A stretch of DNA of 64,000 bases from [Haemophilus] felis (GTDB lineage Bacteria; Pseudomonadota; Gammaproteobacteria; Enterobacterales; Pasteurellaceae). The notes beneath the pieces were generated by a model that had not been told where the DNA came from, did not search any database, and worked only from the letters and a program-made list of their open reading frames with translations. Shown piece by piece: positions 5,574 through 57,982 of the stretch (positions are counted from its first letter, which is position 1; each line of letters begins with the position of its first letter). The position numbers and the translations under genes are program-made. The stretch lies in the NCBI GenBank assembly GCA_002015125.1, contig MUYB01000012.1:111080-175079 (forward strand), written 5' to 3'.

Positions 5574-5583
5574 TGTGTTTTTC

Positions 5584-41286: not shown

Positions 41287-41299
41287 TCTTGCCCCCTAT

Positions 41300-41518
41300 C
41301 TATAAATGGCGAGATGGCCATATATCTTTCGGTTCAAGCCTCAAAGCATCAGCAATAATGCGTTCTCCTTTGGGATATGGCTTATCTAGTGCGTTACGAA
41401 TAGTATTTTTAGCTAATCCATTCTCCACGCCTAATTGAGCAAATGTCTTACCGCGCTTCATCAATTCACCACGGATTTCATTGTTACTCATATCGCGAGT
41501 CCTTTTATTTCTTGCCAT
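41300..41518 (-). CDS. ner: Ner-like DNA-binding regulator
   Basis: This 72-residue protein has the Ner/Nlp helix-turn-helix (SNNEIRGELMKRGKTFAQLGVENGLAKNTIRNAL, in pieces) and ends RLEPKDIWPSRHL. Ner in Mu turns down both the early and repressor promoters during lytic growth. It is the first gene of the early operon. A shorter start at 41491 is possible. Confidence 0.85.
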   Translation of the reverse strand: MARNKRTRDMSNNEIRGELMKRGKTFAQLGVENGLAKNTIRNALDKPYPKGERIIADALRLEPKDIWPSRHL

Positions 41519-41731
41519 TTTGTGAGATCCTTTGAGATTAGTTTTTAGAACTACTGGAGCGATATAGTTCGCTCAACTACGGGAGAGAATATAATACTTA
41601 TTCTTTATCAAATCAATAAGTGATTTAGAAAATTTTTATTAAATCCTTTTGTGATTTACATAACACTTTGATTTAATTATGATTTTCTAAGAAAAATTTT
41701 CTTAATCATTTTGATTAAGAAAGGGGCTTTT
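41519..41731. promoter_or_regulatory. Divergent control region between ner and the repressor
   Basis: These 213 bp hold the expected early promoter and repressor promoter. Inverted repeats seen: GAGCGA-TATAGT-TCGCTC (41557-41574) and CTTAATCA-TTT-TGATTAAG (41701-41719), the latter just before the repressor RBS. TGATTT-type half-sites recur between them in AT-rich DNA. They are probable operators for the repressor and Ner. The actual sites need footprinting. Confidence 0.6.
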
Positions 41732-42406
41732 ATGAAATCAATTAAAGAGTGGTTTTCGGCAAAAGATTTAGAAGGGATTGATGGACTGCCAAACAGAGCC
41801 ACGAACATTACAAGAAAAGCAATAAAGGAAGGGTGGCTAAAAAGAGATGCTAAAGGAATAAAGGGGGGGGGGTTTGAATACCACTATACATCTTTACCAG
41901 AGAGAGTTCGACTTGCCCTAGGGTTTGATGTCACAGATCAGGGCTTTACCCAAAAAGCTAGCGTATTTGAAAACGTGAGTGCAATGCACATCGCAGGAAA
42001 CGGCGTAGAACGCAAGGAATACGCCTTTAGAGCGGATTGGTTAGCCAGTAAAGGGCTACAAGCCAGTAGGCTTGCAATGCTTGAAATGAAAGACGATGGA
42101 ATGCAACCCACCATTTGCAAAGGCGATAGATTGCTGGTTCAGGTTTTCTATCATAATGCGAATAACCAGCTCCGCCTAGGGCTTGCCAGCGACCAGTTGC
42201 ATAAATTAGTTGATGGGCTATATTTAGTGAGAATTAACGGCAGGGCTTCAATCAGGCGGCTACAAATCGACATACAGGGCAACGTTAAAATCAAGTATGA
42301 TAACCCTTTGTACGAAACCATCGAAATCAACAAAGAGAGCTTCGATCCAACAATCATAGAAGGGCGGTTAGAGTGGTTCGCCCACACGATTGATTGGGAA
42401 ATTTAA
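41732..42406 (+). CDS. Mu-type c repressor with S24-like C-terminal domain
   Basis: This 224-residue protein joins a Mu N-terminal DNA-binding domain (EWFSAKDLEGIDGLPNRATNITRKAIKE) to a LexA/CI-like C-terminal domain (LEMKDDGMQPTICKGDRLLVQ...GLYLVRINGRASIRRLQ). The usual catalytic Ser of GDSM is Gly here (DDGM), and the Lys position reads Arg. Self-cleavage is therefore unlikely and SOS induction doubtful. Codons 45-47 are GGG GGG GGG in a G10 run, a likely slippage site. Start at 41732 with AAGGGG upstream. Confidence 0.85.
   Translation: MKSIKEWFSAKDLEGIDGLPNRATNITRKAIKEGWLKRDAKGIKGGGFEYHYTSLPERVRLALGFDVTDQGFTQKASVFENVSAMHIAGNGVERKEYAFRADWLASKGLQASRLAMLEMKDDGMQPTICKGDRLLVQVFYHNANNQLRLGLASDQLHKLVDGLYLVRINGRASIRRLQIDIQGNVKIKYDNPLYETIEINKESFDPTIIEGRLEWFAHTIDWEI
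41863..41872 (+). repeat. G10 homopolymer inside the repressor gene
   Basis: Ten consecutive G form the end of Lys44 and Gly45-Gly47. The homologous Gly triplet in the transposase gene uses mixed GGT/GGA codons. One base gained or lost would truncate the repressor shortly after its DNA-binding domain. Confidence 0.95.
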
Positions 42407-42425
42407 ACGTCATTTAAACCCTCTT

Positions 42426-42484
42426 AAATTTGGCGCAAGCGTTTCGCAGTTCTAGCGGTTCAACCACCCACCTGCGCCAAATTT
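42426..42484. repeat. 12-bp inverted repeat enclosing a transposase-site-like sequence
   Basis: AAATTTGGCGCA (42426-42437) pairs perfectly with TGCGCCAAATTT (42473-42484). The 35-nt loop contains CGCAGTTCTAGCGGTT (42445-42460). That matches the prophage-end site CGCAGTTTTAATGG at most positions, so it may be an internal MuA-type site at the left end. Confidence 0.55.
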
Positions 42485-42525
42485 TTCGCAATTCATTATT
42501 TTTCCTTTTCTTTGGGTATAAAAAA

Positions 42526-42547
42526 GGGGCTACCGCCCCGAAGCCCC
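42526..42547 (+). terminator. Probable terminator after the repressor
   Basis: GGGGCT (42526-42531) pairs with AGCCCC (42542-42547) around a short loop, preceded by A-rich sequence. It lies about 120 bp past the repressor stop. The T-tract is weak. Confidence 0.45.
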
Positions 42548-42616
42548 AATTCTCAACGGCTCAACCGTCCGCCAAGTTCCGAAAAATTCCGCCAAATCCC
42601 TATTTCTTTTTTTTTT

Positions 42617-42639
42617 CTTAGTTTTAATGGTTTTTAACA
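42617..42639. repeat. Left (c) end of the prophage with terminal transposase site
   Basis: CTTAGTTTTAATGGTT (42617-42632) is identical to 8222-8237 at the other end and is followed by TTTAACA, the CA terminus. A T10 run precedes it. It is the terminal recombination end of the element. Confidence 0.8.
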
Positions 42640-42644
42640 CCCCG
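42640..42644. repeat. Target-site duplication, copy 2 (CCCCG)
   Basis: This is the second copy of the 5-bp repeat that flanks the prophage, directly after the CA end. Confidence 0.9.
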
Positions 42645-43311
42645 ATTGCCAATCCGCCTTCAACGCCGCCATCGGCAACGCAACAGAAACTAGCATACCG
42701 CTGTAATAATCGTCCACCACAGGGCAGAACAACGGTGGCTGCTGCAAGCCTGAAATTTTTTGCATTTCAGGCAAGTGCTTATGGGTTAACCCCAAACCAT
42801 ACAGCCGAGGGGCACGGTAACTCTCGGGGCAGTTTTCCTGTTCATATTCCGCAATCATCGCCTTACCGCCGCCCGAATAGCCTGTCAATGACTGGCAAAC
42901 AAGCGGATAGTTTGCCGGCAAAATATCCCCTTGAATTAACGGTGTCACCAACGCCAAAAAGCCCGTTGCGTGACAGCCTGGTACCGCCACCCGATTCGCT
43001 GCCGCCACCTGCGACAGTCCCACTAATTCAGGAAAACCATACACCCAGTTTGGCTGCGTACGGTGTGCCGTGGACGTATCACAAATTTTGACCGAAGGGG
43101 GAGCGTGCTGCACAATCTCCTTCGCCGCTGCATCGGGCAGGCAAAGAAAGGTTAAATCCGCCTCCGCCATTTTCGCCAAACGCGCAGCCAAGTCTTTACG
43201 TTGTGCCTCAGGCAGGGTCAGCAACTGAATATCCGCCTCATCACTCAAACGTTGATGAATGCGTAACCCCGTTGTCCCCACAGCCCCATCCACAAAAATT
43301 TTATATGCCAT
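42640..43311 (-). pseudogene. argC: argC 5' fragment (type 2 N-acetyl-gamma-glutamyl-phosphate reductase)
   Basis: Encodes the N-terminal NAD(P)-binding start YKIFVDGAVGTTGLRI and the active-site Cys in VAVPGCHATGF. It continues through the conserved TGYSGGGKAMI and DDYYSGMLVSV segments up to the prophage junction. Without the C-terminal 90 residues (7882-8153) the enzyme should be inactive. A few prophage bases extend the frame to a stop at 42634. Confidence 0.93.
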
Positions 43312-43382
43312 ACACTTTCCTTAAATTTATTAGAGAAAGTTGGAGTGTAGGCACAAAAAAGAATAACTTCAAGTAAAAATTA

Positions 43383-43418
43383 AATAAACATACACATTTT
43401 TTGCATTTTTATTCATTT
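43383..43418 (-). promoter_or_regulatory. Probable ArgR boxes upstream of argC
   Basis: TTGCATTTTTATTCATTT (43401-43418) fits the ARG box consensus TNTGAATWWWWATTCANW well. A weaker half-site pair, AAATAAACATACACAT, lies just to its left at ARG-box spacing. ArgR with arginine would repress argCJBD here. The 323-bp gap 43312-43634 holds these sites and the mukF promoter; nothing else is evident. Confidence 0.6.
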
Positions 43419-43634
43419 ATGACAACAATGCCATTTTTCTTTGCCTTGCCGTTCCTTTAAAAAAGACAGAGGAGAATTACATAAAAAATCGGAAAAAATG
43501 CAAAAGAAAAATGTGATCTTCTTTGCAATACGCCAAAATTTCCTGCTGGAAGTAGGCGACAAATTGCACTGCTAATGCTACAATTTGGGAAATTTTTTGT
43601 GTCATTTTATGCTTAACGCTGTTGAGATTTGCTA

Positions 43635-44960
43635 ATGCTTGAAACATCACAAACCATTCCTGAACTCGTTTCTTGGGCAAGAGATCGAGAATTTTCCTTA
43701 AACCTTTCCACGGAACGCTTGGCGTTTTTGCTTGCCGTCGCTATTTACAACAACGAACGCTTAGATGGCGAAATGTTGGAAGCGGATCTGGTAGATATTT
43801 TCCGTCACGTTTCTGAGGCGTTTTTTCAATCTACTGAGAACGTGGCAATACGTGCTAACAACGCAATTAATGAGCTTGTAAAGCAGCGTTTCTTAAACCG
43901 CTTTAGCAGTGAATTTACCGAAGGGCTTTCCATTTATCGCTTAACGCCATTAGGCGTTGGTATTTCTGATTATTATATTCGCCAGCGTGAATTTTCGGCG
44001 TTGCGTTTGTCTGTGCAGCTTTCTATTGTGGCGGATGAAATTGATCGTGCCGCGGCAGCAGCAGAGGAGGGGGGCGATGAGCATCATTGGCGTAGAAATG
44101 TTTTTGCTCCGCTGAAATATTCCGTGGCGGAAATTTTTGACAGCATTGATTTGTCGCAGCGAGTGATGGACGAAAATCAGCAGCAAATTAAAGAAGAAAT
44201 TGCAGAATTATTGAGCAAAGATTGGCAAGCAGCAATTGCCAGTTGTGAGCAATTATTAGATGCCACTTCAGGCAATTTACGTGAGTTGCAAGACACGCTA
44301 AACGCCGCTGGCGATAAGTTACAAGCACAGCTATTGCGGATTCAGGATTGCGTCATCGGACAGCCAAATTTAGCCTTTGTAGAGCAGTTAATTACGGATT
44401 TACAAGGAAAATTAGACCGCATCATCAGCTGGGGGCAACAAGCCATTGATTTGTGGATTGGCTATGACCGCCACGTGCATAAATTTATTCGTACCGCCAT
44501 TGATATGGACAAAAATCGTGTCTTTTCTCAACGTTTACGCCATTCCATTCATCATTATTTTGATCATCCGTGGTTCTTATGGACAGCACAGGCGGAGCGT
44601 TTAGTTGATTTGCGAGACGACGAACTCACTCTGCGTGAAGATGATGCCTTAGGTGAATTGCCTGAAGCGTTGCAATATGAATCTTTAGCTGATTTGCACG
44701 AACAAATTGTGGAGCAAATGCAAACCTTGCTTATCGCCTACCGTGAACAGAATCAGCCTATTGATTTGAGTTTGGTGTTAAAAATGCAGCTGGAAAATTA
44801 TCCTCTTTCAAAACACTTTGACGTCGCCCGCATTATTGTGGATCAAGCCGTTCGGCTTGGTCTTGCCAAAGACGATTTAAGTGGAATTTATCCAAATTGG
44901 CAGGCGATTAACCAATATGGTGCGGAAGTACAAGCACATCGAATTGATGAATATAAGTAG
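43635..44960 (+). CDS. mukF: Chromosome condensin kleisin MukF
   Basis: MukF is the kleisin bridging MukB heads and binding MukE. The protein (about 441 residues, from the ATG at 43635; a TTG six bases up is in frame) starts [23 protein letters not shown]. The middle helical region is [19 protein letters not shown], and the C-terminal winged helix binds the MukB cap. It is intact. It is followed after 36 bp by a restriction endonuclease gene instead of mukE, which is not the usual operon order. Confidence 0.95.
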
Positions 44961-44996
44961 TTTGGTTTATGGTGAATTAAGTAAGGAGAAGTGCGG

Positions 44997-45893
44997 ATGA
45001 AAAACAATGAAATTGAAGTATTATTTAAGCTACCTGAAGCAGAAGAAAAGCAGTTTACGGATTTTATTAAAACGCAACGAGAACAGCTTATTTCTTCTCC
45101 TAAAGCCAATGCCCAAAGTGCAACAAAGCAAAATGCACCATTGATGAAAAAATTACTCGATCAAAATCAAATTTCAGAAGCTATTATGCATTTGAGAGAA
45201 GCAAGTTATGAACAATATCTTCGAGAGGAAAGTTTATTTAATAGCATTATTTTAAAAGAACTGAGTACAAAATTTAAAACACCGCATTCAATTATTGAAA
45301 AATTAAGTCAAAATTTCTTTGATTTAAAAATTGATACCCCACATATTTTTGAAAAACAATTAATTGAAACCTTTGGTAATTATGCTGGTGCTATCACACC
45401 TTATATTTATCAGCTGTGTTTAAGTAATACGCAATCTCGTCGTTCTCGGGCGGGAAAAACCTTTGAGGGAATTATTTATTTTCTTTATGAGCATTTTGGA
45501 TTCACCTTTAATTCGCAAGCTCAAATTGGACGTCGAGTATTTTCTGAATTGGGATTGGGAAAAATTGTCGATTCTGTTTTACCGAGTGTTGAAGCATTTA
45601 AACAACGGAGAGATAAAACTGTTGTTGGCTCAATGAAAACGACTTTACGTGAGCGTTGGCAAGAAGTTGTTGAAGAAGTAAGTCGCTCCAATGTACCAAG
45701 TATTTATTTGCTGACCGTTGATGATGATATTTCAGAAAATAAAGCTATTCAGATGGGAACGCACAATATTGTGTTAGTTGTTTTAAAATCAGTGAAAAAT
45801 CAGCCTCATTTACAAAACAAACGAAGTATTATTGATTTTGAATCTTATTTTTTAGAAGAAGTTCCTAATGTCATGAAATATTGGAGTAAATAA
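44997..45893 (+). CDS. Type II restriction endonuclease, EcoRII catalytic-domain-like
   Basis: This 298-residue protein has, at about residues 148-221, the sequence SRRSRAGKTFEG...FGFTFNSQ, then VDSVLPSVEAF and MKTTLRERWQEV. This is the arrangement of EcoRII-C type nucleases, with conserved Arg/Glu/Lys. EcoRII relatives cut CCNGG-like sites; the exact site here is unknown. ATG at 44997 with AAGGAG upstream. It overlaps the methyltransferase start by one base (TAATG). It lies between mukF and mukE and is visibly AT-rich. Confidence 0.8.
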   Translation: MKNNEIEVLFKLPEAEEKQFTDFIKTQREQLISSPKANAQSATKQNAPLMKKLLDQNQISEAIMHLREASYEQYLREESLFNSIILKELSTKFKTPHSIIEKLSQNFFDLKIDTPHIFEKQLIETFGNYAGAITPYIYQLCLSNTQSRRSRAGKTFEGIIYFLYEHFGFTFNSQAQIGRRVFSELGLGKIVDSVLPSVEAFKQRRDKTVVGSMKTTLRERWQEVVEEVSRSNVPSIYLLTVDDDISENKAIQMGTHNIVLVVLKSVKNQPHLQNKRSIIDFESYFLEEVPNVMKYWSK

Positions 45894-46888
45894 TGATAAA
45901 AATTATTGATTTATTTGCTGGAATCGGTGGTATTCGATTGGGGTTTGAACAAGCTTTTCAGCAGGTTGAATGTGTGTTTACTTCGGAAATTGATCAACAC
46001 GCTGTTTACACGTATCAAGCAAACTTTCCTAATGAAGATATTCGTGGTGATATTACCCAAATTGATGAAGATGATATTCCAGAACACGATATTTTATTAG
46101 CTGGATTTCCTTGTCAGCCTTTCTCTCAAGCAGGATTAAAAAAAGGATTTACAGATACAAGAGGAACGTTATTTTTTGAAATTGAACGTATTTTGTTAGC
46201 TAAAAAACCACGAGCATTTTTACTTGAAAATGTAAAGCAGTTGAAAGGGCATAATAAAGGTGAGACTTTATCTGTTATTTTAACACATTTATCCTCTGCT
46301 GGTTATAAAGTTTATTATGATGTGTTAAGGGCTAGAGATTTTGGTGTGCCACAAAATAGAGAACGTATTTATATTGTTGGATTTTTAGATCATAAAATTA
46401 ACTTTGAATTTCCTCAGCCATCAAAAGTGGGTACGCAAGTAGGAGATATTCTTGAGAAAAATGTTGATCCCAAATATACAATTTCTGATCGTCTTTGGGC
46501 AGGACATCAGAGAAGAAAGGAAACAAATAAATTAAATGGAAAAGGATTTGGTTATGGGCTTTTTAATGAAAAATCCCCATATACTAATACAATTTCAGCA
46601 AGATATTATAAAGATGGCAGTGAAATATTGATTGAACAAAAAGGGAAAAATCCTCGTAAATTAACACCGAAAGAGGCGGCTAGATTACAAGGTTTCCCTG
46701 AAAATTTTCGTATTCCAGTGTCTGATGCACAAGCTTATAAACAGTTTGGGAACAGTGTTTGTGTGCCTGTTATTCGAGCAATTGCAAGACAAATGAAATT
46801 AGCAATGCAAGAAAAAAAGGAGGTAAAAAAGGTTAAGTATCATTTCACTAAACCGTTAAAACCTGTTCAATTGGCTATGAATTTTTAA
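45893..46888 (+). CDS. DNA (cytosine-5) methyltransferase of a Type II system
   Basis: This 331-residue C5 methyltransferase shows motif I DLFAGIGGIRLGF, motif IV GFPCQPFSQAG (catalytic Cys), motif VI LLENV, motif VIII QNRERIYIVGF, and motifs IX-X RLQGFPENF and QFGNSVCVPV. The recognition region includes GFGYGLFNEKSPYTNTISARYYKDG, close to Dcm/CCNGG-type enzymes. It would protect against the preceding endonuclease. The gene is AT-rich, same strand as mukF/mukE, 40 bp before mukE. Confidence 0.93.
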   Translation: MIKIIDLFAGIGGIRLGFEQAFQQVECVFTSEIDQHAVYTYQANFPNEDIRGDITQIDEDDIPEHDILLAGFPCQPFSQAGLKKGFTDTRGTLFFEIERILLAKKPRAFLLENVKQLKGHNKGETLSVILTHLSSAGYKVYYDVLRARDFGVPQNRERIYIVGFLDHKINFEFPQPSKVGTQVGDILEKNVDPKYTISDRLWAGHQRRKETNKLNGKGFGYGLFNEKSPYTNTISARYYKDGSEILIEQKGKNPRKLTPKEAARLQGFPENFRIPVSDAQAYKQFGNSVCVPVIRAIARQMKLAMQEKKEVKKVKYHFTKPLKPVQLAMNF

Positions 46889-46928
46889 AATGATTAACAA
46901 CCTATCAATAAGTTAAAAGAAAAAAACA

Positions 46929-47660
46929 ATGACAGACAATCTTCAAGATCTTATTTCAACTAAATTAGCAGCAGCGATTGCTAATCCTTTATTTCCTGCG
47001 GTGGATAGTTTACTACGAGCTGGGCGACATATCAGTATTGATCAATTAGATAATCACGCTTTTTTAATGGATTTTCAGGGCGAGCTGGAGAGTTTTTATT
47101 GCCGCTATCATGTGGAATTAATCCGTGCACCTGAAGGTTTTTTCTATTTACGTCCGAAGGCAACCACATTAATTGCTCGTTCAGTGTTAACCGAATTAGA
47201 GATGTTAGTGGGCAAAGTGCTTTGTTATCTGTATTTAAGCCCAGAACGTTTGGCACAGCAGGGGATTTTTTCCACCCAAGAAGTTTATGATGAATTGCTG
47301 AATTTAGCGGACGAAGGAAAATTACTCAAAGCGGTTAATCAGCGTTCTTCAGGCTCAGATTTAGATAAACAAAAACTCGCAGAAAAAGTACGAGCGGCTT
47401 TAGCACGTTTACGCCGTTTAGGAATGATACATACCGTGGGTGAACAACATAGTGGAAAATTTACCATTTCCGAAGCTGTTTTCCGTTTTGGTGCAGAAGT
47501 TCGTTCAGGCGATGATCCTCGTGAAGCACAATTACGTTTAATTCGAGACGGTGAAGCAGCGACGCCAGAATCCCTAGCTTTAGAAAAACAGGCGAAAGGG
47601 GAGAGCGATGTGGAAAACACTGAAGAAATTGAAGATGAATTAGATGAGGAACAAGCATAA
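46929..47660 (+). CDS. mukE: Chromosome condensin subunit MukE
   Basis: MukE binds MukF and regulates the MukB ATPase and DNA loading. The 243-residue protein ([21 protein letters not shown]...[17 protein letters not shown]) keeps both winged-helix domains and an acidic C-terminus ([12 protein letters not shown]). It is separated from mukF by a restriction-modification pair and from mukB by a Type IIB system. Its last codons and the following mukB start are repeated at 50969-51037. Confidence 0.95.
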
Positions 47661-47697
47661 TGTCTGAATTAGCCCTTGAAAATGTTGAATAAGAGTA
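47632..47697 (+). repeat. Duplicated mukE-end/mukB-start segment, copy 1
   Basis: The 36 bp 47632-47667 are identical to 50969-51004. Similarity continues after a 3-bp difference to about 47697. Copy 1 is the true mukE end followed by a dead mukB start. Confidence 0.92.
47660..47692 (+). pseudogene. Remnant of the mukB start
   Basis: The ATG overlapping the mukE stop opens a 10-codon frame, [10 protein letters not shown], then TAA. The real mukB starts [14 protein letters not shown]. This marks where mukB once began before the Type IIB system was placed between mukE and mukB. The gap to 47770 holds no other gene. Confidence 0.8.
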
Positions 47698-47769
47698 AAG
47701 GCTAAACTAAGTAGAGTATAAATAATAAAAAATTAACCAGACATTCTAGTTATTGGACGTGTGAAAAAA

Positions 47770-49821
47770 ATGGCAAAACAAAGTATTGAACCGAATATTG
47801 CAGATTTAGCCAACGGTTGGCTAAAACAGTATCAGCTTGACTACAAATTAGAACAAGAGCCTTTAAATGATGAAATCGATAAAGCACTGAAAGACTATTT
47901 CTCAAAAAATGGCGGAACAGGGGCAAATCGTCCAGATGCTAAATTGCTGTTATCCACGCAATACGGTGAAATCTTTCCTGTGTTGATTGAATATAAAGGC
48001 TATGCAGACAAACTAGTTAAGCTCGATGCGGATGGCAATGTGGATAATCGCACCGCAAAAAACGAACCAAATTTTAAGCACATCAACAGCTATGCAGTAA
48101 ATGGTGCGGTGCACTATGCCAATGCCTTGTTACACCATACGAGCTATACGGATATTATCGCCATTGGTATGACGGGTGAAAAAGATGAACAAGGTAAAAT
48201 CCGTCATCAAATTGGGGTGTATTATGTCTCTAAAAAGAATTTAGGGGTTGGGCAAAACGTCGGCGAATTTTCAGATTTTTCATTCCTTGCCAAAGAAAAT
48301 GCGGATGCTTTTATTGAGCAGGTCAAAAATCTATCACTTTCACAAGCAGAATTAGACAAACTGAAAGAAAAACGTGAAAGAGAGATCGATACCAGCCTAG
48401 TGAAATTGAATAATGATATTTATCAAAATGAAAAAGGCTTAGGTGAAAATGATCGTGTTTATCTCGTTGCAGCTTCTATTATTGCCACCTTAGGCGTTGC
48501 AGGAAAGGTAAAACCGTTAGAAAAAGAAGATCTGAAATCTTCGCAAGAAGAGGGAAATCGTGATGGTGATATTATCATCCGTAAAATCAATGCGTTCTTT
48601 AACGAGAAAAAATTACCGCAAGACAAAAAAGACCTGATTATTCGAACCCTTTCTAATACGCTTTTAACGGAAAATATCAATAAGCCACATAATGGCGAAA
48701 GTCAGCTGAAACGTGTATTTACTAAAATTGTTGATGACTTAGGCATTTACTACAAAATTGGCTTAACCACAGATTTTACAGGCAAGCTATTTAATGAAAT
48801 GTATTCTTGGTTAGGTTTTACCCAAGATAAATTAAATGATGTGGTTCTCACACCGTCTTATGTGGCGACGTTACTGGTGAAATTAGCACGAGTAAATAAA
48901 GACAGCTATGTATGGGATTTTGCCACAGGCTCGGCTGGTTTGCTCGTGGCGGCGATGAATGAGATGCTTAAAGATGCCAAAGAAAATATCACATCGCCAG
49001 AACAATTACATTTAAAAGAAGCCCACATCAAAGCCAAACAATTATTAGGTTTAGAGTTGCTTTCAAGCGTCTATATGCTGGCTATTTTAAATATGATTAT
49101 GATGGGCGATGGTAGCTCAAACATCATCAACAAAAACTCACTCACTGATTTTGACGGTAATTATGGCTTTGGGAATATTGAAGAAAAATTCCCAGCCGAT
49201 GCTTTTGTCCTTAACCCACCTTATTCTGCAACAGGTAATGGAATGAACTTTGTGGAGACGGCACTGAATATGATGCACAAAGGTTATGCGGCAATTATTA
49301 TTCAAAATTCGGCAGGCAGCGGCAGAGCAAAAGAGATTAACTGTCGTATTTTGAAAAAGCATACGCTGTTAGCCAGCATTAAAATGCCTGTGGATCTCTT
49401 TATCGGCAAATCTAGCGTACAAACGAATATTTATGTGTTTAAAGTCAATGAAAAACATCATAAAGATGAAATGGTGAAATTTATTGATTTTAGTAATGAT
49501 GGCTACACGCGAACCAACCGCAAAAAGGCAAGCAACAACCTAAAAGACACCGATCACGCCCGTGAACGTTATGAAGAAGTGGTGAACTTAGTCCGTTTTG
49601 GCAGAAGTAAACTGAATATCTTTACGGATAAAGAGTATTACGAAAATACTATCGATCCTAACAATGGTGCCGATTGGAATCAATCCGCCCCGATTGATAC
49701 CAAGCCAACCCTTGAGGATTTCAAAAAAACCGTGGCAGATTATTTGGCGTGGGAAGTGTCTAATTTATTGAAAAAGCAAGATACGCAAGATGAAACCTTG
49801 GGAAAGTCGAAACCCACTTAA
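47770..49821 (+). CDS. BcgI-like Type IIB restriction-modification protein (nuclease plus adenine methyltransferase)
   Basis: The protein is about 683 residues (ATG at 47770; an in-frame GTG lies at 47761). The N-terminal part has a PD-(D/E)xK nuclease pattern, RPDAKLLL then VLIEYKG. A gamma-class N6-adenine methyltransferase follows, with motif I WDFATGSAGLL (about residue 385) and motif IV LNPPYSA (about 484). BcgI-type enzymes need a separate specificity subunit and cut on both sides of a bipartite site. The next gene is that subunit. The end (ETLGKSKPT) may be a frameshift product. Confidence 0.85.
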   Translation: MAKQSIEPNIADLANGWLKQYQLDYKLEQEPLNDEIDKALKDYFSKNGGTGANRPDAKLLLSTQYGEIFPVLIEYKGYADKLVKLDADGNVDNRTAKNEPNFKHINSYAVNGAVHYANALLHHTSYTDIIAIGMTGEKDEQGKIRHQIGVYYVSKKNLGVGQNVGEFSDFSFLAKENADAFIEQVKNLSLSQAELDKLKEKREREIDTSLVKLNNDIYQNEKGLGENDRVYLVAASIIATLGVAGKVKPLEKEDLKSSQEEGNRDGDIIIRKINAFFNEKKLPQDKKDLIIRTLSNTLLTENINKPHNGESQLKRVFTKIVDDLGIYYKIGLTTDFTGKLFNEMYSWLGFTQDKLNDVVLTPSYVATLLVKLARVNKDSYVWDFATGSAGLLVAAMNEMLKDAKENITSPEQLHLKEAHIKAKQLLGLELLSSVYMLAILNMIMMGDGSSNIINKNSLTDFDGNYGFGNIEEKFPADAFVLNPPYSATGNGMNFVETALNMMHKGYAAIIIQNSAGSGRAKEINCRILKKHTLLASIKMPVDLFIGKSSVQTNIYVFKVNEKHHKDEMVKFIDFSNDGYTRTNRKKASNNLKDTDHARERYEEVVNLVRFGRSKLNIFTDKEYYENTIDPNNGADWNQSAPIDTKPTLEDFKKTVADYLAWEVSNLLKKQDTQDETLGKSKPT

Positions 49822-49859
49822 CAGCACAGTTAGAACAGGTTGAGTGGGGTGAATTTAGA

Positions 49860-50936
49860 TTGGGTGATCTGTTTGAAATAGAAGGAACAAAGTCTCTAGA
49901 TAGTAATGCAATTGATTTTGTTGAAAAAGGTATTAATTTTGTTGGAAGAACATTTGAAAATAACGGTATACAAGGTTTTATTAAAAAAAGAGATTTTGAA
50001 CCTAATAGTCCGTTTACCATTACAGCAACTGTAATCGGTAATTACAAATATGTAAAATATCAAAAAGAAGAATATTACTGTTCACAAAATATAAATAAAC
50101 TTACTCCTAAAAAAATCATTAATAAATGGAATGAAAGAGTTGCATATTTTTTTGTATCAAATATTCAAAAATTTGTCTCTCTTTATGATGGTCAGCAGGG
50201 TGGGTATAAACTTAACGATATAAAGAAACATAAAATTAATCTACCAACCCAAAAAGGCAAAATCGATTTTGATTTTATGGAAAATTTTATCTCGCAGCTC
50301 GAGGCGTATTTATTGGTTACTGGCTTAAAAGATTATACACTAAATCCTGAAGAAAATCAAGCGGTTATGGATTTTAAGGCGGGAAAAATTCAGTGGGGAG
50401 CAATTAAAATTATCGATTTATTTAGTGTAAAAAATACGAGAAATATTCTATCAAGAGATATAGTAGAAAATAGCGGAGAAATTCCATATCTTTCAGCAAG
50501 CCGTGAAAATAATGGCGTTAGTTCTTACATTAGTTATGATGAAAGTTATTTAGATGAAGGGAATTGTATTTTTATTGGTGGTAAAACCTTTGTAGTTACT
50601 TATCAAGAGAAAGATTTCTACTCTAATGATAGCCATAATTTGTCTCTTTATTTAAAAGAAACACAGAATAGAAATAGATATAATCAATTATTTTTAGCGT
50701 CCTGTATTTACAAAGGTTTGGATTATAAATATTCGTGGGGAGATAGTATCAGCAATAAGAAAATTCAAGTTGATGTTATTAAAGTACCGATGAAAAATAA
50801 TAAACCCGACTACGATTATATGGCGATTTTAATTTCCGCCATTCAAAAATTAGTAATAAAAGATGTCGTGTTGTACGCCGACAGAAAAATAGCCGCAACG
50901 AAACAGATTATTGAGAGCAATAACCCCAAGAGATAA
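49860..50936 (+). CDS. Specificity subunit of the Type IIB system
   Basis: This 358-residue S protein has two half-site recognition domains (GDLFEIEGTKSLDS... and IKIIDLFSVKNTRNIL...), each ended by a helical segment (GKIDFDFMENFISQLEAYL; NKPDYDYMAILISAIQKL). The listed start is TTG 49860, but the conserved beginning of such proteins (QVEWGEFRLGDLFE) lies upstream in the same frame, open from 49794. The true start or a link to the preceding protein is unresolved. Very AT-rich. Confidence 0.8.
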   Translation: MGDLFEIEGTKSLDSNAIDFVEKGINFVGRTFENNGIQGFIKKRDFEPNSPFTITATVIGNYKYVKYQKEEYYCSQNINKLTPKKIINKWNERVAYFFVSNIQKFVSLYDGQQGGYKLNDIKKHKINLPTQKGKIDFDFMENFISQLEAYLLVTGLKDYTLNPEENQAVMDFKAGKIQWGAIKIIDLFSVKNTRNILSRDIVENSGEIPYLSASRENNGVSSYISYDESYLDEGNCIFIGGKTFVVTYQEKDFYSNDSHNLSLYLKETQNRNRYNQLFLASCIYKGLDYKYSWGDSISNKKIQVDVIKVPMKNNKPDYDYMAILISAIQKLVIKDVVLYADRKIAATKQIIESNNPKR

Positions 50937-50941
50937 ACACA

Positions 50942-50968
50942 ATGACAAACACTCTTTCAACCAAATTA
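50942..50968 (+). pseudogene. mukE-start-like remnant
   Basis: ATGACAAACACTCTTTCAAC and the following CAAATTA resemble the mukE start (ATGACAGACAATCTT...TCAACTAAATTA) with an internal deletion of about 12 bp. It then joins, out of frame, to the mukE end repeated at 50969. It appears to be scar DNA from how the Type IIB genes arrived. Confidence 0.55.
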
Positions 50969-51037
50969 AAGATGAATTAGATGAGGAACAAGCATAATGT
51001 CTGATGAATTAGCCCTTGAAAATATTGAACAAGAACA
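50969..51037 (+). repeat. Duplicated mukE-end/mukB-start segment, copy 2
   Basis: Identical to copy 1 over 36 bp, then similar into the working mukB start. It includes the mukE tail (DELDEEQA) not attached to a mukE gene. Confidence 0.9.
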
Positions 51038-54000
51038 AATGCCGAATTCTCTCGCAACAAACCCAAATATAAATGATGTGCCGCGTGGTAAGTTTCGTTC
51101 TTTAACCTTGATTAACTGGAACGGTTTTTTTGCTCGCACTTTTGATTTAGATGAATTAGTAACGACGCTGTCAGGCGGTAACGGTGCAGGGAAATCCACC
51201 ACAATGGCAGGTTTTGTTACCGCACTTATTCCTGATTTAACCTTGTTGCATTTCCGCAATACCACGGAAGCTGGGGCAACCAGCGGTTCTCGTGATAAAG
51301 GTTTGCACGGAAAATTACGTCCTGGTGTGTGTTATGCGGCGTTAGATACCATAAATTCTCGCAATCAGCGTGTGATCGTCGGTGCAAGACTGCAACAAGT
51401 GGCGGGGCGTGATAAAAAAGTCGATATAAAAACCTTTTCCATTCAAGGCTTGCCTTTGTCGGAGAATCCGACGGCGGTGTTTACGGAAATCGTGGGGGCA
51501 CGCCAAGCCCGTGTGCTTTCGCTTAATGAATTAAAAGAAAAAATGGAGCAGAGCGGCACGCAATTTAAGCAATATCATTCTATTGCAGACTATCACGCAA
51601 TGATGTTTGATTTGGGCATTATTCCGAAGCGTTTGCGTTCATCGTCGGATCGCAGCAAATTTTACAAACTTATTGAAGCTTCTTTGTACGGCGGTATTTC
51701 TAGTGCTATCACTCGTTCTTTGCGAGATTATTTATTGCCTGAAAACGTCGGCGTCCGTAAAGCGTTCCAAGATATGGAAAGTGCTTTGCGTGAAAATCGG
51801 ATGACTTTGGAAGCTATCAAAGTAACACAATCGGATCGCGATTTATTTAAACATTTAATCACTGAAACCACGAATTATGTGGCATCGGATTATATGCGTA
51901 ACGCCAATGAACGTCGTGGCAATGTAGAAAATGCATTGCGTTCTCGTCAAGAATGGTATCGTGCTAGGGCTGAACAAACTTTATCTCAACAGCGTTTAGT
52001 GGAATTAAGTCGTGAAGCGGCGACGCTTGCGGAAGCGGAAAAAACCTTAGAAGTGGATCATCAAAGTGCAGTGGATCACCTTAATTTGGTACTTAACGCC
52101 TTGCGACATCAGGAAAAAATTTCACGCTATCAAGAAGATGTGGAAGAAATCGGCGCTCGTTTGGAAGAACAGCACATTGTTGTGGAAGAAGCCGCTGAGC
52201 AGCTGGAAGAAAATCAAGCACAAGTGGAGTTGTTGGAAAATGAAATTGATCAAATTCGCACGCAATTAGCGGATTATCAGCAAGCCTTAGACGCTAAACA
52301 AACTCGTGCTTTGCAATATCAACAAGCGGTTGCAGCCCTTGAAAAAGCGAAAACCTTGTGTGGTTTGGCGGATTTAAGCGTTAAAAATATGGATGCTTAC
52401 CACGAGGAATTTGCCGCTCACGCCGACAGTCTGACCGAGCAAGTACTTGAGTTGGAGCACACAATGTCTATTTCTGAAGTAGCGAAAAGTCAATTCGACA
52501 AAGCCTATCAGTTGCTGTGCAAAATCGCTGGCGATGTCCCTCGTTCCAGTGCATTTGAACAAGCAAAAGTTTTGTTGAGCGAATATCCGACGCAAAAAAT
52601 TCAAGCACAACAAGCGGCGGCGTTACGAGGAAAATTGCGTGAGCTGGAACAACGTTACGCCCAGCAGCAACAAGCATTCCGTTTGTTGGAAGAGTTTAAT
52701 CAACGTGCGAATTTAGATTTAGCGGATGCCGAAGCTTTAGAGAATTATCACGCCGAACAAGAAGCCTTGCTGGAAGATTTGACGGCGACCCTATCAGAGC
52801 AAGTGGAGCAGCGTTCTACCTTGCGTGAAAAACGTGAGCAATTAAATGTGTTGTATCACGAAAATACCCAAAAAGCCCCAGCGTGGTTAACGGCTCAGGC
52901 GGCGTTAGAACGTTTGCAAGATCAAAGCGAACAGCAATTTAGCGACAGCCAAGATGTGATGCAGTTTATGCAAGCACAGCTAGTGAAAGAGCGTGAATTG
53001 ACCATTGAACGAGATCAATTGGAGCAAAAACGCCAGCAATTAGAAGAGCAAATTTCTCGTTTAAGCCAGCCTGACGGTTCGGAAGATGCACGCTTAAATG
53101 TGCTGGCGGAACGCTTTGGCGGCGTACTGTTGTCGGAACTTTACGATGATGTGCCAATTGAAGATGCACCATATTTTTCTGCTTTATATGGCCCTGCACG
53201 CCATGCCATTGTAGTACGTGATTTAGAGGCGGTAAAAAGCCAATTAGTTGAGCTTGAAGACTGTCCTGATGATTTATATTTAATTGAAGGTGATCCAACC
53301 GCCTTTGATGACAGTGTATTATCGGCTCAAGAATTAAGTCATGGCGTGGTGGTTCAAGTGTCTGATCGGGAATTGCGTTATTCCAAGTTCCCTGAAACGC
53401 CGCTGTTTGGGCGTGCAGCACGAGAAAAACATTTAGAGCAATTGCAACAACAACGTGATGAAGTGGCAGAGCAGTATGCCCAGCGTGCTTTTGACGTGCA
53501 AAAATGTCAACGTTTACACGAACAATTTAGCCAGTTCGTGGGCTTGCATTTAGCCCTAGCGTTCCAGCCAAATCCTGAACAAATTTTGGCACAGGTCAGT
53601 TCACAACGTAATGAAATTGAACGAGAATTAAATCAATTTAGTGCCACAGAACAACAAATTCGCATTCGTTTAGACAATGCAAAAGAGCAAATGCAACTGT
53701 TGAATAAATTAATTCCGCAGTTAAATCTACTGGCTGATGAGAGTTTACTTGACCGTGTGGAAGAATGCCGTGAACAGCTGGATCTTGCGGAACAAGATGA
53801 GCTCTTTATTCGTCAACACGGCGTTACGTTGTCGCAATTAGAACCTATTGCGAACACCTTGCGAAGCGATCCTGAAAATTACGACAAACTCAAAGCGGAT
53901 TATGAGCAAACACGTACGCAACAAAAACAATTGCAGCAACGAGTATTCGCCTTAGCCGACGTTGTACAACGCAAGGCACATTTCGCTTACGAAGAACGCC

Positions 54001-55484
54001 AACAAACCGACGGCGGCAATTTGAATGAGCAATTGCGTGCAAGATTGGAAGAAATGCAACAACAGCGTGAAAGCCAAAAAGCCCAATTAGCACAAAAACA
54101 AAGTCAATATGCAGGCTACAATCGAGTATTAATTGAGCTACAAACCTCTTTCAACAACAAAAATCAAATGCTACAAGAGTTGTTGCAAGAAGTGGCGGCG
54201 TTAGGCGTGCGTGCTGACGACGGTGCGGAATTGCGAGCGAAAGAACGCCGTGATGAATTGCATCAATTGTTATCTGATAATCGCCAACGCCGTCAACAGG
54301 TGGAAAAACAATTAACCCTGATTGAAAGTGAAGCACAAGGATTAACCGCACGCATTCGCAAGGCAGAGCGTGATTACAAAGCTCAACGTGAACTTGTGGT
54401 AGCGGCGAAAGTGAGCTGGTGCGTGGTGATGCGATTGTCTCGAGGCGGCGACGTAGAAAAACGCTTAAATCGCCGTGAATTAGCTTATTTATCCGCCGAT
54501 GAATTGCGTTCAATGTCCGATAAAGCCCTTGGTGCCTTGCGTCAAGCCGTCGCCGACAACGAATATTTGCGTGATAGCTTGCGACTTTCCGAAGACAATC
54601 GCAAACCTGAAAATAAAGTGCGTTTCTTTATTGCGGTGTATCAACATTTGCGTGAACGTATTCGTCAAGACATCATCAAAACTGACGACCCAATTGACGC
54701 CATTGAGCAAATGGAAATTGAACTTTCTCGTTTAACGGCGGAGTTAACTCGTCGTGAACAAAAATTAGCGATCAGCTCGGAAAGCGTCGCCAACATTATG
54801 CGTAAAACCATTCAGCGTGAGCAAAACCGCATTCGTATGCTCAACCAAGGTTTGCAAAACATCGCCTTTGGTCAAGTAAAATCGGTGCGTTTAGTGGTTA
54901 ATATTCGTGATACCCACGCAATGTTGCTTGATGCCTTATCGGGGACACAGGAAGAATATCAAGATTTGTTCAAAGACGGACGTATGAGCTTCTCCGAAGC
55001 TATCGCCAAACTTTATCAACGTCTCAACCCACACATTGATATGGGGCAACGCAACGCACAAACTATCGGCGAAGAATTACTAGATTATCGCAATTATCTC
55101 GATTTAGAAGTGGAGGTGTATCGTGGTGCGGACGGTTGGTTGCGTGCGGAAAGTGGGGCATTATCAACGGGTGAAGCCATTGGTACCGGAATGTCTATCT
55201 TATTAATGGTAGTACAAAGTTGGGAAGAAGAGTCTCGTCGTATCCGCGGTAAAGATATTGTGCCTTGCCGTTTATTATTCTTAGACGAAGCTGCGCGTTT
55301 AGATGCGAAGTCTATTTCTACCTTATTTGAATTGTGCGAGCGTTTAGATATGCAATTATTAATCGCCGCGCCAGAAAATATTAGTCCTGAAAAAGGCACC
55401 ACCTACAAACTAGTACGTAAAATCGCTGGCAACCAAGAACATGTTCATGTGGTTGGGTTAAGAGGATTTGGGGCAACAGAGTAG
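50997..55484 (+). CDS. mukB: Chromosome condensin SMC-like ATPase MukB
   Basis: This 1495-residue MukB is complete. The N-terminal ATPase half has Walker [17 protein letters not shown]. Two long coiled-coil arms meet at a hinge (about 650-790, [32 protein letters not shown]). The C-terminal half has the signature [17 protein letters not shown] and Walker [13 protein letters not shown]. It extrudes DNA loops with MukF and MukE. The start overlaps a duplicated mukE stop (TAATG), which keeps the usual translational coupling signal though mukE is 3.3 kb away. Confidence 0.96.
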
Positions 55485-55521
55485 AGAATATAGATAATTA
55501 TTTTTTATTCTTCAACGACAC

Positions 55522-55549
55522 AAAAAATCCACCATTCGGTGGATTTTTT
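55522..55549. terminator. Bidirectional terminator between mukB and glnS
   Basis: A perfect 12-bp stem, AAAAAATCCACC-ATTC-GGTGGATTTTTT, with A and T tracts serves the convergent mukB and glnS transcripts. Confidence 0.9.
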
Positions 55550-55563
55550 TATAACTTATAAAC

Positions 55564-57240
55564 TTAAAAACCTTCTTTCAAGCTCACAGTTAAGTTAAAC
55601 ACCAAATGTTCAGGTGAGCTGTCTTTGCTGTCGGCGCAGTAATAACCTTCACGCTCAAATTGGTAGGCTTGTTCTGGTTGGGCGTTGGCGAGACTTTTTT
55701 CCACTACGCCGTGTTTCACCACTAAGGAATTTGGATTAATTACTGCATTAATATCTTCTGCCGCACCTGGATTTGGCACCGTAAATAAACGATCATATTG
55801 ACGGAATTCCGCATTCAAATAATCTTCCGCAGACACCCACTGAATCACGCCTTTCACTTTACGTCCATCGGCTGGATTTTTGCCCAAGGTTTCAGGATCG
55901 TAACTGCAATACACTGTGATAATATTGCCTGCTTCATCTTTTTCCACACGTTCTGCTTTAATCACATAAGCATTGCGTAAACGTACTTCTTTGCCTAACA
56001 CTAAACGCTTGTACTGTTTATTGGCTTCTTCACGGAAATCCGCTTGATCGATATAAATTTCACGGGTGAATGGCAATTGACGCACGCCCAATTTTGGACG
56101 ATTTGGGTGATTTGGTGCAGTTAAGATTTCTTTGTCCGCAAAGTTTTCAATGACAATTTTTAATGGATTGATCACCGCCATTGCACGTGGGGCATTTTCA
56201 TTTAAATCTTCACGAATACAGGCTTCTAAGGCACTGTATTCCACGGTGTTATCTTGTTTTGTCACACCAATACGACGACAAAATTCACGCAATGCCGCTG
56301 GTGTATAACCACGACGACGTAAGCCAGAAATGGTTGGCATACGCGGATCGTTCCAACCATCTACAATGCCTTCATTTACGAGATAGAGTAGCTTACGTTT
56401 TGAGGTTAAGGTACCTTCTAAATTCAAACGAGAAAATTCATACTGATGTGGCAATGGACGTTCAATAGAAATATTTTCTAATACCCAGTCATACAAACGA
56501 CGGTTGTCTTGGAACTCAAGGGTACAAATAGAATGGGTAATTCGCTCAATAGCATCGGAAATACAATGGGTAAAATCGTACATCGGATAAATACACCATT
56601 TATCGCCTGTTTGGTGGTGAGTGGCAAATTTAATGCGATAAATGACAGGGTCACGCATCACCATAAACGGTGACGCCATATCAATTTTGGCACGTAAACT
56701 GGCTTTGCCTTCTGCAATTTCACCGTTTTTCATTTTCTCAAACAAGGCTAAATTTTCTTCTACGCTACGATCACGATAAGGGCTGTTTTTGCCTGGTTCT
56801 GTCAAGGTGCCACGATATTCACGCATTTCTTCAGGCGACAATTCACACACATAAGCCAAGCCTTTTTTAATTAATTCAATTGCATAGCCATATAACTGAT
56901 CAAAATAATCTGACGCATAACGGGGTTCGCCTTCCCATTTGAAGCCTAACCATTCCACATCTTGTTTAATGGAATCCACATATTCCACATCTTCTTTGAC
57001 GGGGTTGGTATCGTCGAAACGCAAATTACATAAGCCATGATAATCTTGGGCTAAACCAAAGTTAAGACAAATGGATTTGGCGTGTCCAATGTGCAAGTAG
57101 CCATTAGGCTCTGGCGGAAAGCGGGTATGAATGGATTGGTGCTTGCCTGCGGCAAGATCTTCGTCAATGATTTGGCGAATAAAATTGGTTGGGCGTTTTT
57201 CTGCCCCAACTTCAGGGGAGTTTGCTGCTGAATTGCTCAT
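55564..57240 (-). CDS. glnS: Glutaminyl-tRNA synthetase
   Basis: GlnS charges tRNA-Gln. The 558-residue class I synthetase has the HIGH motif [15 protein letters not shown] near residue 38-50. The KMSKS-like loop reads LTSKRKL, and the C-terminal anticodon-binding beta-barrels are full length. It is transcribed alone, facing mukB. Confidence 0.97.
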
Positions 57241-57400
57241 TTTGACCTCAAATTATAATCGAACTTTTCTTGTGAAAAATACCCCGTATTCTACCTGTTT
57301 TGCGTGAGAATACAAAGCTATCAGGCAATGGGCTACGAAAAATAACCTAGAAAATAAAAAATGCACTCTGAGAGTAGAGTACACTTTTGTCTTTCATTTC

Positions 57401-57439
57401 ATGTTCATTTTTAAATAGGATGAAATCAAAAATGAACAT
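57401..57439. repeat. 12-bp inverted repeat in the glnS-cspD gap
   Basis: ATGTTCATTTTT and AAAAATGAACAT pair perfectly around 15 nt. The gap 57241-57587 (347 bp) carries the divergent glnS and cspD promoters. The repeat could be an operator or a hairpin in the cold-shock leader; nothing more is clear in the gap. Confidence 0.5.
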
Positions 57440-57587
57440 TTATGGGTTTTACCAACTATAAGATAATCCTAAGTTGACTTTTTAATGTGTAGAAGATCAG
57501 ACTTGATTTTCTACAAATTAGTTGAATATTCTTTTCTGTCTTATAGGGACAAAATGTGTTTTATACAAATCATTAGAGGTTTTAATT

Positions 57588-57797
57588 ATGGAAGTTGGTA
57601 TTGTTAAATGGTTTAATAACGCAAAAGGTTTCGGTTTCATTTCTGTTGAAGGGGTAGAACAAGATATTTTTGCTCATTATTCTGTTATTGAAATGGATGG
57701 ATATCGTTCACTCAAAGTGGGGCAAAAAGTGCATTTTGAAGTGATACACGGCGATAAAGGCTCTCATGCTACAAAGATTGTTCCTATTATTGAATAA
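57588..57797 (+). CDS. cspD: Cold-shock-domain protein, CspD-like
   Basis: This 69-residue single cold-shock domain (EVGIVKWFNNAKGFGFISVEG) has RNP1 KGFGFI and RNP2 DIFAHY. It binds single-stranded nucleic acid. I use the ATG at 57588, which gives the normal N-terminus; the frame is open for 22 more codons without family support. It is close to Haemophilus CspD by memory of its sequence. Confidence 0.88.
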   Translation: MEVGIVKWFNNAKGFGFISVEGVEQDIFAHYSVIEMDGYRSLKVGQKVHFEVIHGDKGSHATKIVPIIE

Positions 57798-57826
57798 ATT
57801 TTTCTTTTTTACATTTCATTAATAAA

Positions 57827-57860
57827 GCAAAAGGCAAGGACTTACCTTGCTTTTGTTTTT
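57827..57860 (+). terminator. Terminator after cspD
   Basis: GCAAGG/CCTTGC with flanking AAAA/TTTT (one bulged G), a 5-nt loop and a T-rich tail follows about 30 bp after the stop. Confidence 0.75.
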
Positions 57861-57982
57861 CTTTTTCTTTTTCTTTAAAAATAAAGCCTATTGGAAACAT
57901 TGAGAATTTGCATTGCTTCGGTATAATGCGCCCATTCTGCTTAGAATGTCCTTTTTAATCATTGCTGAAGAGATAATTACTA

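Follow-up and report, generated by a model that had tools for sequence, protein, structure and literature searches.

The mukFEB operon of [Haemophilus] felis as a doubly filled case of a family-wide insertion site, with a BcgI-like system probably expressed by frameshifting

Two restriction-modification (R-M) systems are found in the muk region of Haemophilus aegyptius NCTC8502 (locus L008). One belongs to the HaeII family and lies between mukF and mukE (L008:7980-9997; PF09554, 9.6e-162), and the other belongs to the HaeIII family and lies just after mukB (L008:15348-17299; PF09556, 1.1e-123), which places two textbook enzyme families in the same muk region. A 1998 paper reportedly deals with HaeII and NgoI. 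The 64,000-nucleotide stretch of [Haemophilus] felis DNA analyzed here (contig MUYB01000012.1; hereafter the window) likewise carries two R-M systems in its muk region, but the second one is located between mukE and mukB rather than after mukB, and the enzymes are of other families. The first is an Ecl18kI-type system between mukF and mukE. The second is a BcgI-like system, which shares with the Type IIB enzyme BcgI a fused nuclease-methyltransferase (A) and a specificity part (S) with two recognition domains. We consider it highly probable that mukFEB is a recurrent landing site in the Pasteurellaceae that was filled twice here, with the muk genes as homology arms and with the BcgI-like S expressed as a frameshift fusion to A. 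The A/S junction is the most surprising element. No paper on a muk hotspot was among the literature matches listed; in the portion of PMC4996451 available, where mukF, restriction endonuclease and Haemophilus occur together, MukFEB is only listed.

As the original prediction had stated, mukF, mukE and mukB are intact and on the same strand, and their products match curated profile models (NF003615, NF003602 and NF003422, respectively) over essentially the full length. The gene order on the + strand is mukF, restriction endonuclease, C5 methyltransferase, mukE, BcgI-like A, S and mukB, with the following features.

43635-44960, + strand: mukF, intact (NF003615, E 6.8e-234, model positions 1-440 of 440)
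about 44997-45893, + strand: Ecl18kI/EcoRII-C-type restriction endonuclease (PF09019, EcoRII-C, 2.3e-16; Ecl18kI chain 2fqz_A, 7.2e-32)
45893-46888, + strand: C5-cytosine methyltransferase, partner of the Ecl18kI-type endonuclease, whose stop its start overlaps by 1 nt (PF00145, 9.9e-112; TIGR00675, 1.1e-110)
46929-47660, + strand: mukE, intact (NF003602, 2.5e-122)
47626-47694, + strand: left copy of a 72-bp repeat, mukE 3' end and truncated mukB start (E 4e-21)
47709-47766, + strand: left edge of the BcgI cassette (blastn match to the DUF1016-bcgA intergenic DNA of locus L144, from 47709)
47767-49821, + strand: BcgI-like A, nuclease and N6 methyltransferase (PADLOC PDLC03616, 5.8e-245; N6_Mtase, 2e-23)
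49800-49806, + strand: slippery heptamer G_GGA_AAG in the A frame
49813-49848, + strand: hairpin with a 10-bp stem and a 16-nt loop, 6 nt after the heptamer
49800-50936, + strand: BcgI-like S, -1 frame open from the heptamer, 378 codons (two Methylase_S stretches, 2.8e-30)
50939-50969, + strand: remnant resembling the mukE 5' end (alignment, blastn)
50963-51034, + strand: right copy of the 72-bp repeat, carrying GAGGAA and the start of the intact mukB
50997-55484, + strand: mukB, intact (NF003422, E 0, 2343 bits)

The R-M genes are lower in G+C (30-38%) than the muk genes (41-44%), as expected for acquired DNA. No terminator-like site was found on the + strand in the intergenic junctions, which has little weight either way because the scan overall was not above shuffles (19 terminator-like sites against 15.2 +/- 3.2 expected, and 34 promoter-like sites against 39.5 +/- 6.5). 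No RNA family reached its gathering threshold in 40000-58000 and no tRNA gene was found in the whole window.

In the original prediction, the arrangement was set against genomes in which mukF, mukE and mukB are contiguous, but it is not unique to this DNA. When the mukFEB locus was compared across Pasteurellaceae, as had been proposed there, other inserts were found between mukF and mukE (25/138 loci) and between mukE and mukB (3/135). The sample consisted of the mukE neighbourhoods of the 139 genomes, from a set of 140, with a mukE match (65, numbered L001-L065 and matched to the 140 genomes by hand from coordinates, and 74 further). L132, with no mukF measured, stands outside the mukF-mukE count and L136, with no mukB measured, outside the mukE-mukB count. 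The 25 filled mukF-mukE gaps are those of at least 400 bp; the gap is below 400 bp in the other 113 of the 138 measured loci. Two comparison junctions were used for this frequency, mukE-mukB and one neighbouring conserved pair. Counted by open reading frames (ORFs), 25/137 mukF-mukE gaps are filled against 3/135 for mukE-mukB (Fisher p 1.1e-5) and 2/79 for the neighbouring pair (Fisher p 4.6e-4). The stretch from mukB to the next conserved gene is also loose (filled in 27/80). Fifteen loci from Serratia, Hafnia and relatives (L066-L080) were kept apart from the Pasteurellaceae counts; they have no insert there, and the overlap of mukF with mukE is about 16 bp. We concluded that the arrangement in the window is a doubly filled case of a family-wide site and not the sign of a new machine combining structural maintenance of chromosomes (SMC) proteins with restriction. 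DNA uptake signals were considered as the cause of the hotspot and rejected (present in 34/113 empty mukF-mukE gaps and 182/621 other same-strand gaps).

Defence or selfish cassettes are carried by 11 of the 25 filled mukF-mukE gaps. Insert families were identified by a profile scan on representatives, and the remainder were assigned by similarity to the representatives or to the window genes, as follows.

mukF-mukE gap, HaeII-type R-M: L008 and L086
mukF-mukE gap, Ecl18kI-type R-M: L039
mukF-mukE gap, HinP1I-type R-M: L154
mukF-mukE gap, BcgI-like R-M: L120 and L144
mukF-mukE gap, YhcG/DUF1016 nuclease: L133, L142, and beside BcgI in L144
mukF-mukE gap, Septu PtuAB: L135 and L138
mukF-mukE gap, AbiE: L140
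mukF-mukE gap, acyltransferase-ligase: 7 loci
mukF-mukE gap, SLAC1-type transporter: 3 loci
mukF-mukE gap, DUF2853: 2 loci, one with a trypsin-like protein
mukF-mukE gap, DNA alkylation repair protein: 1 locus
mukF-mukE gap, SIMPL protein: 1 locus
mukE-mukB gap, DUF1016 nuclease: L128
mukE-mukB gap, zeta-toxin gene and a small ORF: L135
mukE-mukB gap, zeta-like gene fragments: L144

Unrelated cassettes are thus located between the same core genes, as in a defence hotspot. No integrase or transposase was found among the insert proteins scanned. When 10 proteins from 9 chosen post-mukB loci (of the 27 filled) were compared with PADLOC, nine were matched, including HaeIII, Mrr and Fic types and several candidate families.

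Two records were noted in passing. The HaeIII-family system in the muk region of L010 has a shorter nuclease ORF (250 aa), and the muk genes of L012, a record titled Pseudomonas stutzeri NCTC11607, group beside Haemophilus, so that the record is probably misnamed.

All 40 ORFs of at least 80 aa in the mukF-mukE inserts are co-directional with the operon, whereas of the ORFs after mukB 24 share the operon's direction and 10 are opposed to it (p 1.8e-4). The post-mukB strand count was made by hand, and the insert gene of L133, missed by the ORF filter, was placed on the + strand by a separate listing. Those filled loci that were inspected at sequence level retain the mukF stop and, in most cases, a GAGA-type site directly before mukE; in L008 the last nuclease codons fall within this site. 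Co-directional inserts and the kept mukE site would fit selection for read-through to mukE and mukB.

Movement of a cassette can be followed in one case. In the MukB tree, L135 pairs with L129 and L138 with L147 (support of 100 in the Shimodaira-Hasegawa-like approximate likelihood ratio test, SH-aLRT, for both), and yet L135 and L138 both carry the Septu cassette, with PtuA 97% identical. The mukF of L135 follows its sister L129 (91-100% per 100-bp window) except in the last bases, where it is 97% identical to L138 and 90% to L129. In the first 60 bp of mukE it is again closer to L138 (90%) than to L129 (65%), and from about 120 bp L129 is equal or closer, except in some windows close to where mukE ends and mukB begins. 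As the mukF and mukE ends facing the cassette in L135 are L138-like, recombination within both muk genes is indicated. Judged from these identities, the Septu cassette moved by recombination in the flanking muk genes, so that muk genes can be homology arms, at least in the one case of L135, L138 and L129. When the 12 cassette types were mapped onto the MukB tree, 15 changes were needed (least possible 11, shuffled mean 18.2). On this mapping, several types appear to have arisen more than once or moved, and others are common to close kin.

The original prediction of an EcoRII-like endonuclease with a C5 methyltransferase between mukF and mukE was right as to location and family, but the nearest solved structure by sequence is Ecl18kI (2fqz_A, 7.2e-32), with EcoRII reaching only 1.3e-3. 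The block TTLRERWQEV is common to the window endonuclease and Ecl18kI, and the C5 methyltransferase motif blocks were located in the window protein. By its nuclease domain, the Ecl18kI-like blocks and the partner C5 methyltransferase, the cassette is classified as a Type II R-M system of the Ecl18kI/EcoRII-C kind. The cleavage site of Ecl18kI we take to be CC..GG. A plasmid origin of this cassette was considered and rejected, as only partial matches of 60-80% identity were obtained from 101 plasmid records, none covering 80%; the matches listed fall under the methyltransferase.

In the BcgI-like system, A contains the PD...EYK and NPPY blocks, in line with a nuclease fused to an N6 methyltransferase. 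A and S match PADLOC models for Type IIG enzymes and Type II specificity subunits, respectively, and S contains two recognition domains. No solved structure related by sequence to bcgA or to the HaeII nuclease was found. The cassette is flanked by a 72-bp direct repeat (66/72 identical, 3 gap positions), absent from the original prediction, which spans the mukE stop and the mukB start. The left copy represents a dead mukB start and the right copy the intact one with GAGGAA.

The closest cassettes are those of L144 and L120. Outside the second recognition domain, the cassette DNA is 84% and 86% identical to L144 in two pieces, compared with 71% for mukF, 75% for mukE and 68-76% for mukB. In L144 the gene order is mukF, DUF1016, bcgA, bcgB, mukE. 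The window cassette starts with an L144-like DUF1016-bcgA spacer, and the match continues through bcgB into the mukE start codon. When the mukE-start remnant was aligned, L135 gave the best score, 20.9, whereas none of 300 mononucleotide shuffles exceeded 18.0. We infer that the cassette lay before mukE in its donor and arrived with part of mukE, the second mukE being mostly lost later. The first half of S is about 90% identical to L144 and L120, whereas its second recognition domain (50387-50792) is unlike both (38/132 and 40/135 identical residues, respectively). Because the second domain diverged while the first half did not, the specificity of this S was probably exchanged relative to the L144 and L120 cassettes.

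In the four Pasteurella-clade loci shown, mukE-mukB is empty, and their DNA identity to the window is only about 80%. The BcgI cassette matches one plasmid, over 64%, in the plasmid search. A bcgA search across 369 genomes of the class gave no match, a result that shows nothing without a known positive. In L120, the gene for the transporter that precedes the BcgI-like system (5251-6188, reoriented) is broken into two frames that overlap.

In the -1 frame, S is open from the A end onwards and conserved between the window, L144 and L120. In the window S there is no ATG or GTG near the beginning, and the first ATG, GTG or TTG is a TTG at 49860, codon 20. Thirty A/S junctions were compared (16 Pasteurellaceae genomes, 8 viral contigs, 5 plasmid or phage records and the window). 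In 25 of them, the window included, the A stop is preceded at a distance of 0-12 nt by an in-frame heptamer of the form X_XXY_YYZ, which in 23/30 is GGGAAAR (G_GGA_AAR); L175-L177 and L183 are identical among these. Of 1980 muk-locus ORFs used as background, 88 contain a heptamer of this form within their final 30 nt, and three contain GGGAAAR. Two of these three are bcgA, and without bcgA the count is 1/1978. L168, L178, L180, L181 and L182 are without an in-frame heptamer, and the A frame of L182 is broken.

For folding, 23 distinct junctions were used (22 with the heptamer and L168). Fourteen of them have no ATG, GTG or TTG before S codon 20, rarer start codons being possible. A hairpin was observed in 23/23; its stem begins 5-7 nt downstream of the heptamer in 17 of them and closer, at 0-4 nt, in the other 6. 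The mean z was -5.0 (range -8.2 to -2.5) against dinucleotide shuffles and -3.1 against synonymous-codon versions. In the ten of the 23 junctions that are in one register and could be used for a pair count, pairing was found in 94.5% of cells, compared with 17-48% in slid controls. Two pairs are changed on both sides, which 37/500 shuffles reach, and further pair types (5) were not above shuffles (5.7). According to the portion of PMC4066793 available, G_GG.A_AA.G is among the most efficient heptamers in E. coli given a stimulator, and a fusion of M and S of EcoKI forms an active complex with added M (PMC6158711, as excerpted).

From these conserved signals, we predict programmed -1 frameshifting, which would give S as a fusion to A, as the likeliest route by which S is made, and the window S is probably not independently translated. 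The BcgI-like Type IIB system placed between mukE and mukB by the original prediction is therefore upheld in so far as A and S were both identified, but S as an independently translated subunit probably is not. For the group as a whole, we believe with good confidence that a widespread set of BcgI-like Type IIB systems (Pasteurellaceae, an Acinetobacter plasmid, a coliphage and other viral contigs) expresses S as a -1 frameshift fusion to A. No report of BcgI frameshifting was found among the literature matches listed, of which long lists were surveyed in their first rows (e.g. the best 15 of 893), and the parts of two frameshift papers at hand (PMC10885494 and PMC3711429) name no BcgI-type system under the terms looked up. 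Two further systems deserve mention. In L183 (Escherichia phage), a BcgI-like system with the same junction signal, the next annotated gene begins about 180 bp after A, at the first S-frame ATG. In L158 the S frame stops after 73 codons and this copy may be broken.

Three other explanations were weighed. The original prediction had offered either a stabilising hitch-hiking strategy in an important operon, which fits the 40/40 co-directional insert ORFs, or a new functional link between SMC complexes and restriction. We give hardly any credence to the latter, by which a coupling of their expression or activity to chromosome packing would hold the restriction genes in the muk operon. An SMC-type defence with a nuclease does exist (MksBEFG; PMC10123090, in the part available), the counted insert ORFs all share the operon's direction and many inserts encode nucleases or methyltransferases. 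However, unrelated cassettes occupy the same place, most loci (113/138) have less than 400 bp there, and 14/25 gaps hold transporter, acyltransferase-ligase or other genes. As inserts are common and those 14 have no recognised defence gene, a specific link is not supported. It also appears improbable that the BcgI unit entered the mukE/mukB junction by classical insertion with a long target duplication and no donor muk gene. The 72-bp direct repeat of the junction would agree with such an event, and events of this kind are described for R-M systems (PMC3031569, as excerpted), but the cassette edges run into the post-DUF1016 spacer of L144 and into a mukE start, so recombination of a muk-borne cassette fits better. 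Beside this edge evidence it has to be noted that the right-hand remnant is short.

The third explanation concerns S alone, which could be translated from a weak or non-standard start coupled to A, the heptamer being incidental or a ribosome-binding site. We consider this unlikely but not negligible, and its weight was raised because in 9/23 distinct junctions an ATG, GTG or TTG lies no more than 10 codons from the heptamer. The window has its TTG at codon 20, the annotated S overlaps A by 8 nt in L180 and L181 (Lactobacillaceae), and G-rich motifs can be Shine-Dalgarno sites, with low-level AUA initiation (described for other motifs in the part of PMC4066793 available). Against a start of its own stand the rarity of GGGAAAR outside bcgA, the 14 distinct junctions without a start codon before codon 20, and the hairpins, which remain below the synonymous controls. 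Besides the nearby start codons, several observations weigh against the explanation that we prefer, namely the recurrent landing site with muk homology arms and an A-S frameshift fusion. The window hairpin is the weakest of all (z -2.5 against dinucleotide shuffles and -0.76 over 96 nt; z -1.0 against synonymous versions, 52/300 of which are as stable). The mukE-start remnant is short and scores 18.7 with the mukE of the window itself, compared with 17.6 for L144, which makes a local origin possible. BcgI-like A occurs in 16/140 Pasteurellaceae genomes, and the system is not tied to muk, as in 14 of these 16 A is 40 kb or more away from mukE or on a different contig. The MukB tree shows some clustering of the cassette types, and hence the filled loci are not all separate events. 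The 14/25 filled gaps without a recognised defence gene belong here too, and uptake signals are not enriched in the mukF-mukE gap and so do not account for the site preference.

With the landing-site explanation, the following course of events is proposed. The mukFEB operon of Pasteurellaceae would be a place where extra genes have landed repeatedly, and no recombinase gene was seen there. With mukF, mukE and mukB as homology arms, as the L135 case shows, the intervening DNA can be exchanged between species, possibly by natural transformation. Inserts would be kept if they are co-directional with the operon and if the next muk gene is still translatable. The window would have been filled twice, by the Ecl18kI-type cassette at mukF-mukE and by the BcgI-like cassette at mukE-mukB, whose relatives precede mukE in L120 and L144. 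The latter event would have duplicated the mukE/mukB junction, preserving the mukB ribosome site and probably leaving the scrap of a mukE start. The R-M genes would probably be transcribed by read-through from the muk promoter, and both A and the A-S fusion would be produced.

In the neighbouring DNA, a Mu-like prophage (roughly 8.3-42.4 kb, mostly on the - strand) appears to split argC (7849-43311). The argC 5' part is located at 42634-43311 and the 3' part directly before argJ (gene names assigned by eye).

The locus is of interest as a case of how defence genes can persist in a core operon and be exchanged there without any visible recombinase, the genes of the operon itself serving as homology arms. 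Should the frameshift prove real, there is a class of R-M systems that uses recoding for its specificity subunit, the ratio of A to A-S would depend on the rate of frameshifting, and BcgI-like systems deemed inactive merit re-examination, as the same device could explain those judged dead for an S without a start codon.

Some of these features have counterparts in known systems. The immigration control region of Listeria (PMC10059834, as far as available) resembles the muk site in its diverse R-M systems between fixed neighbours, but the muk site lies inside a core operon, is family-wide and also holds non-defence genes. In R-M insertion with long target duplication (Nobusato 2000, as cited in the accessible part of PMC3031569), direct repeats of the target flank the insert as they do here, whereas the edges of the window cassette point to a muk-borne cassette. 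For BcgI itself, the excerpt of PMC3510504 describes recognition in a separate subunit, and the window S, in contrast, has no clear start and lies behind a -1 slippery site. The BcgI-like systems HP1471/HP1472 and JHP1364/JHP1365 of H. pylori are, in the part of PMC3936762 at hand, similar to the window in that a stop follows the RM gene and S has no start codon. They were reported there as inactive, most likely for that S without a start, and a ribosome site and start codon were supplied by the authors.

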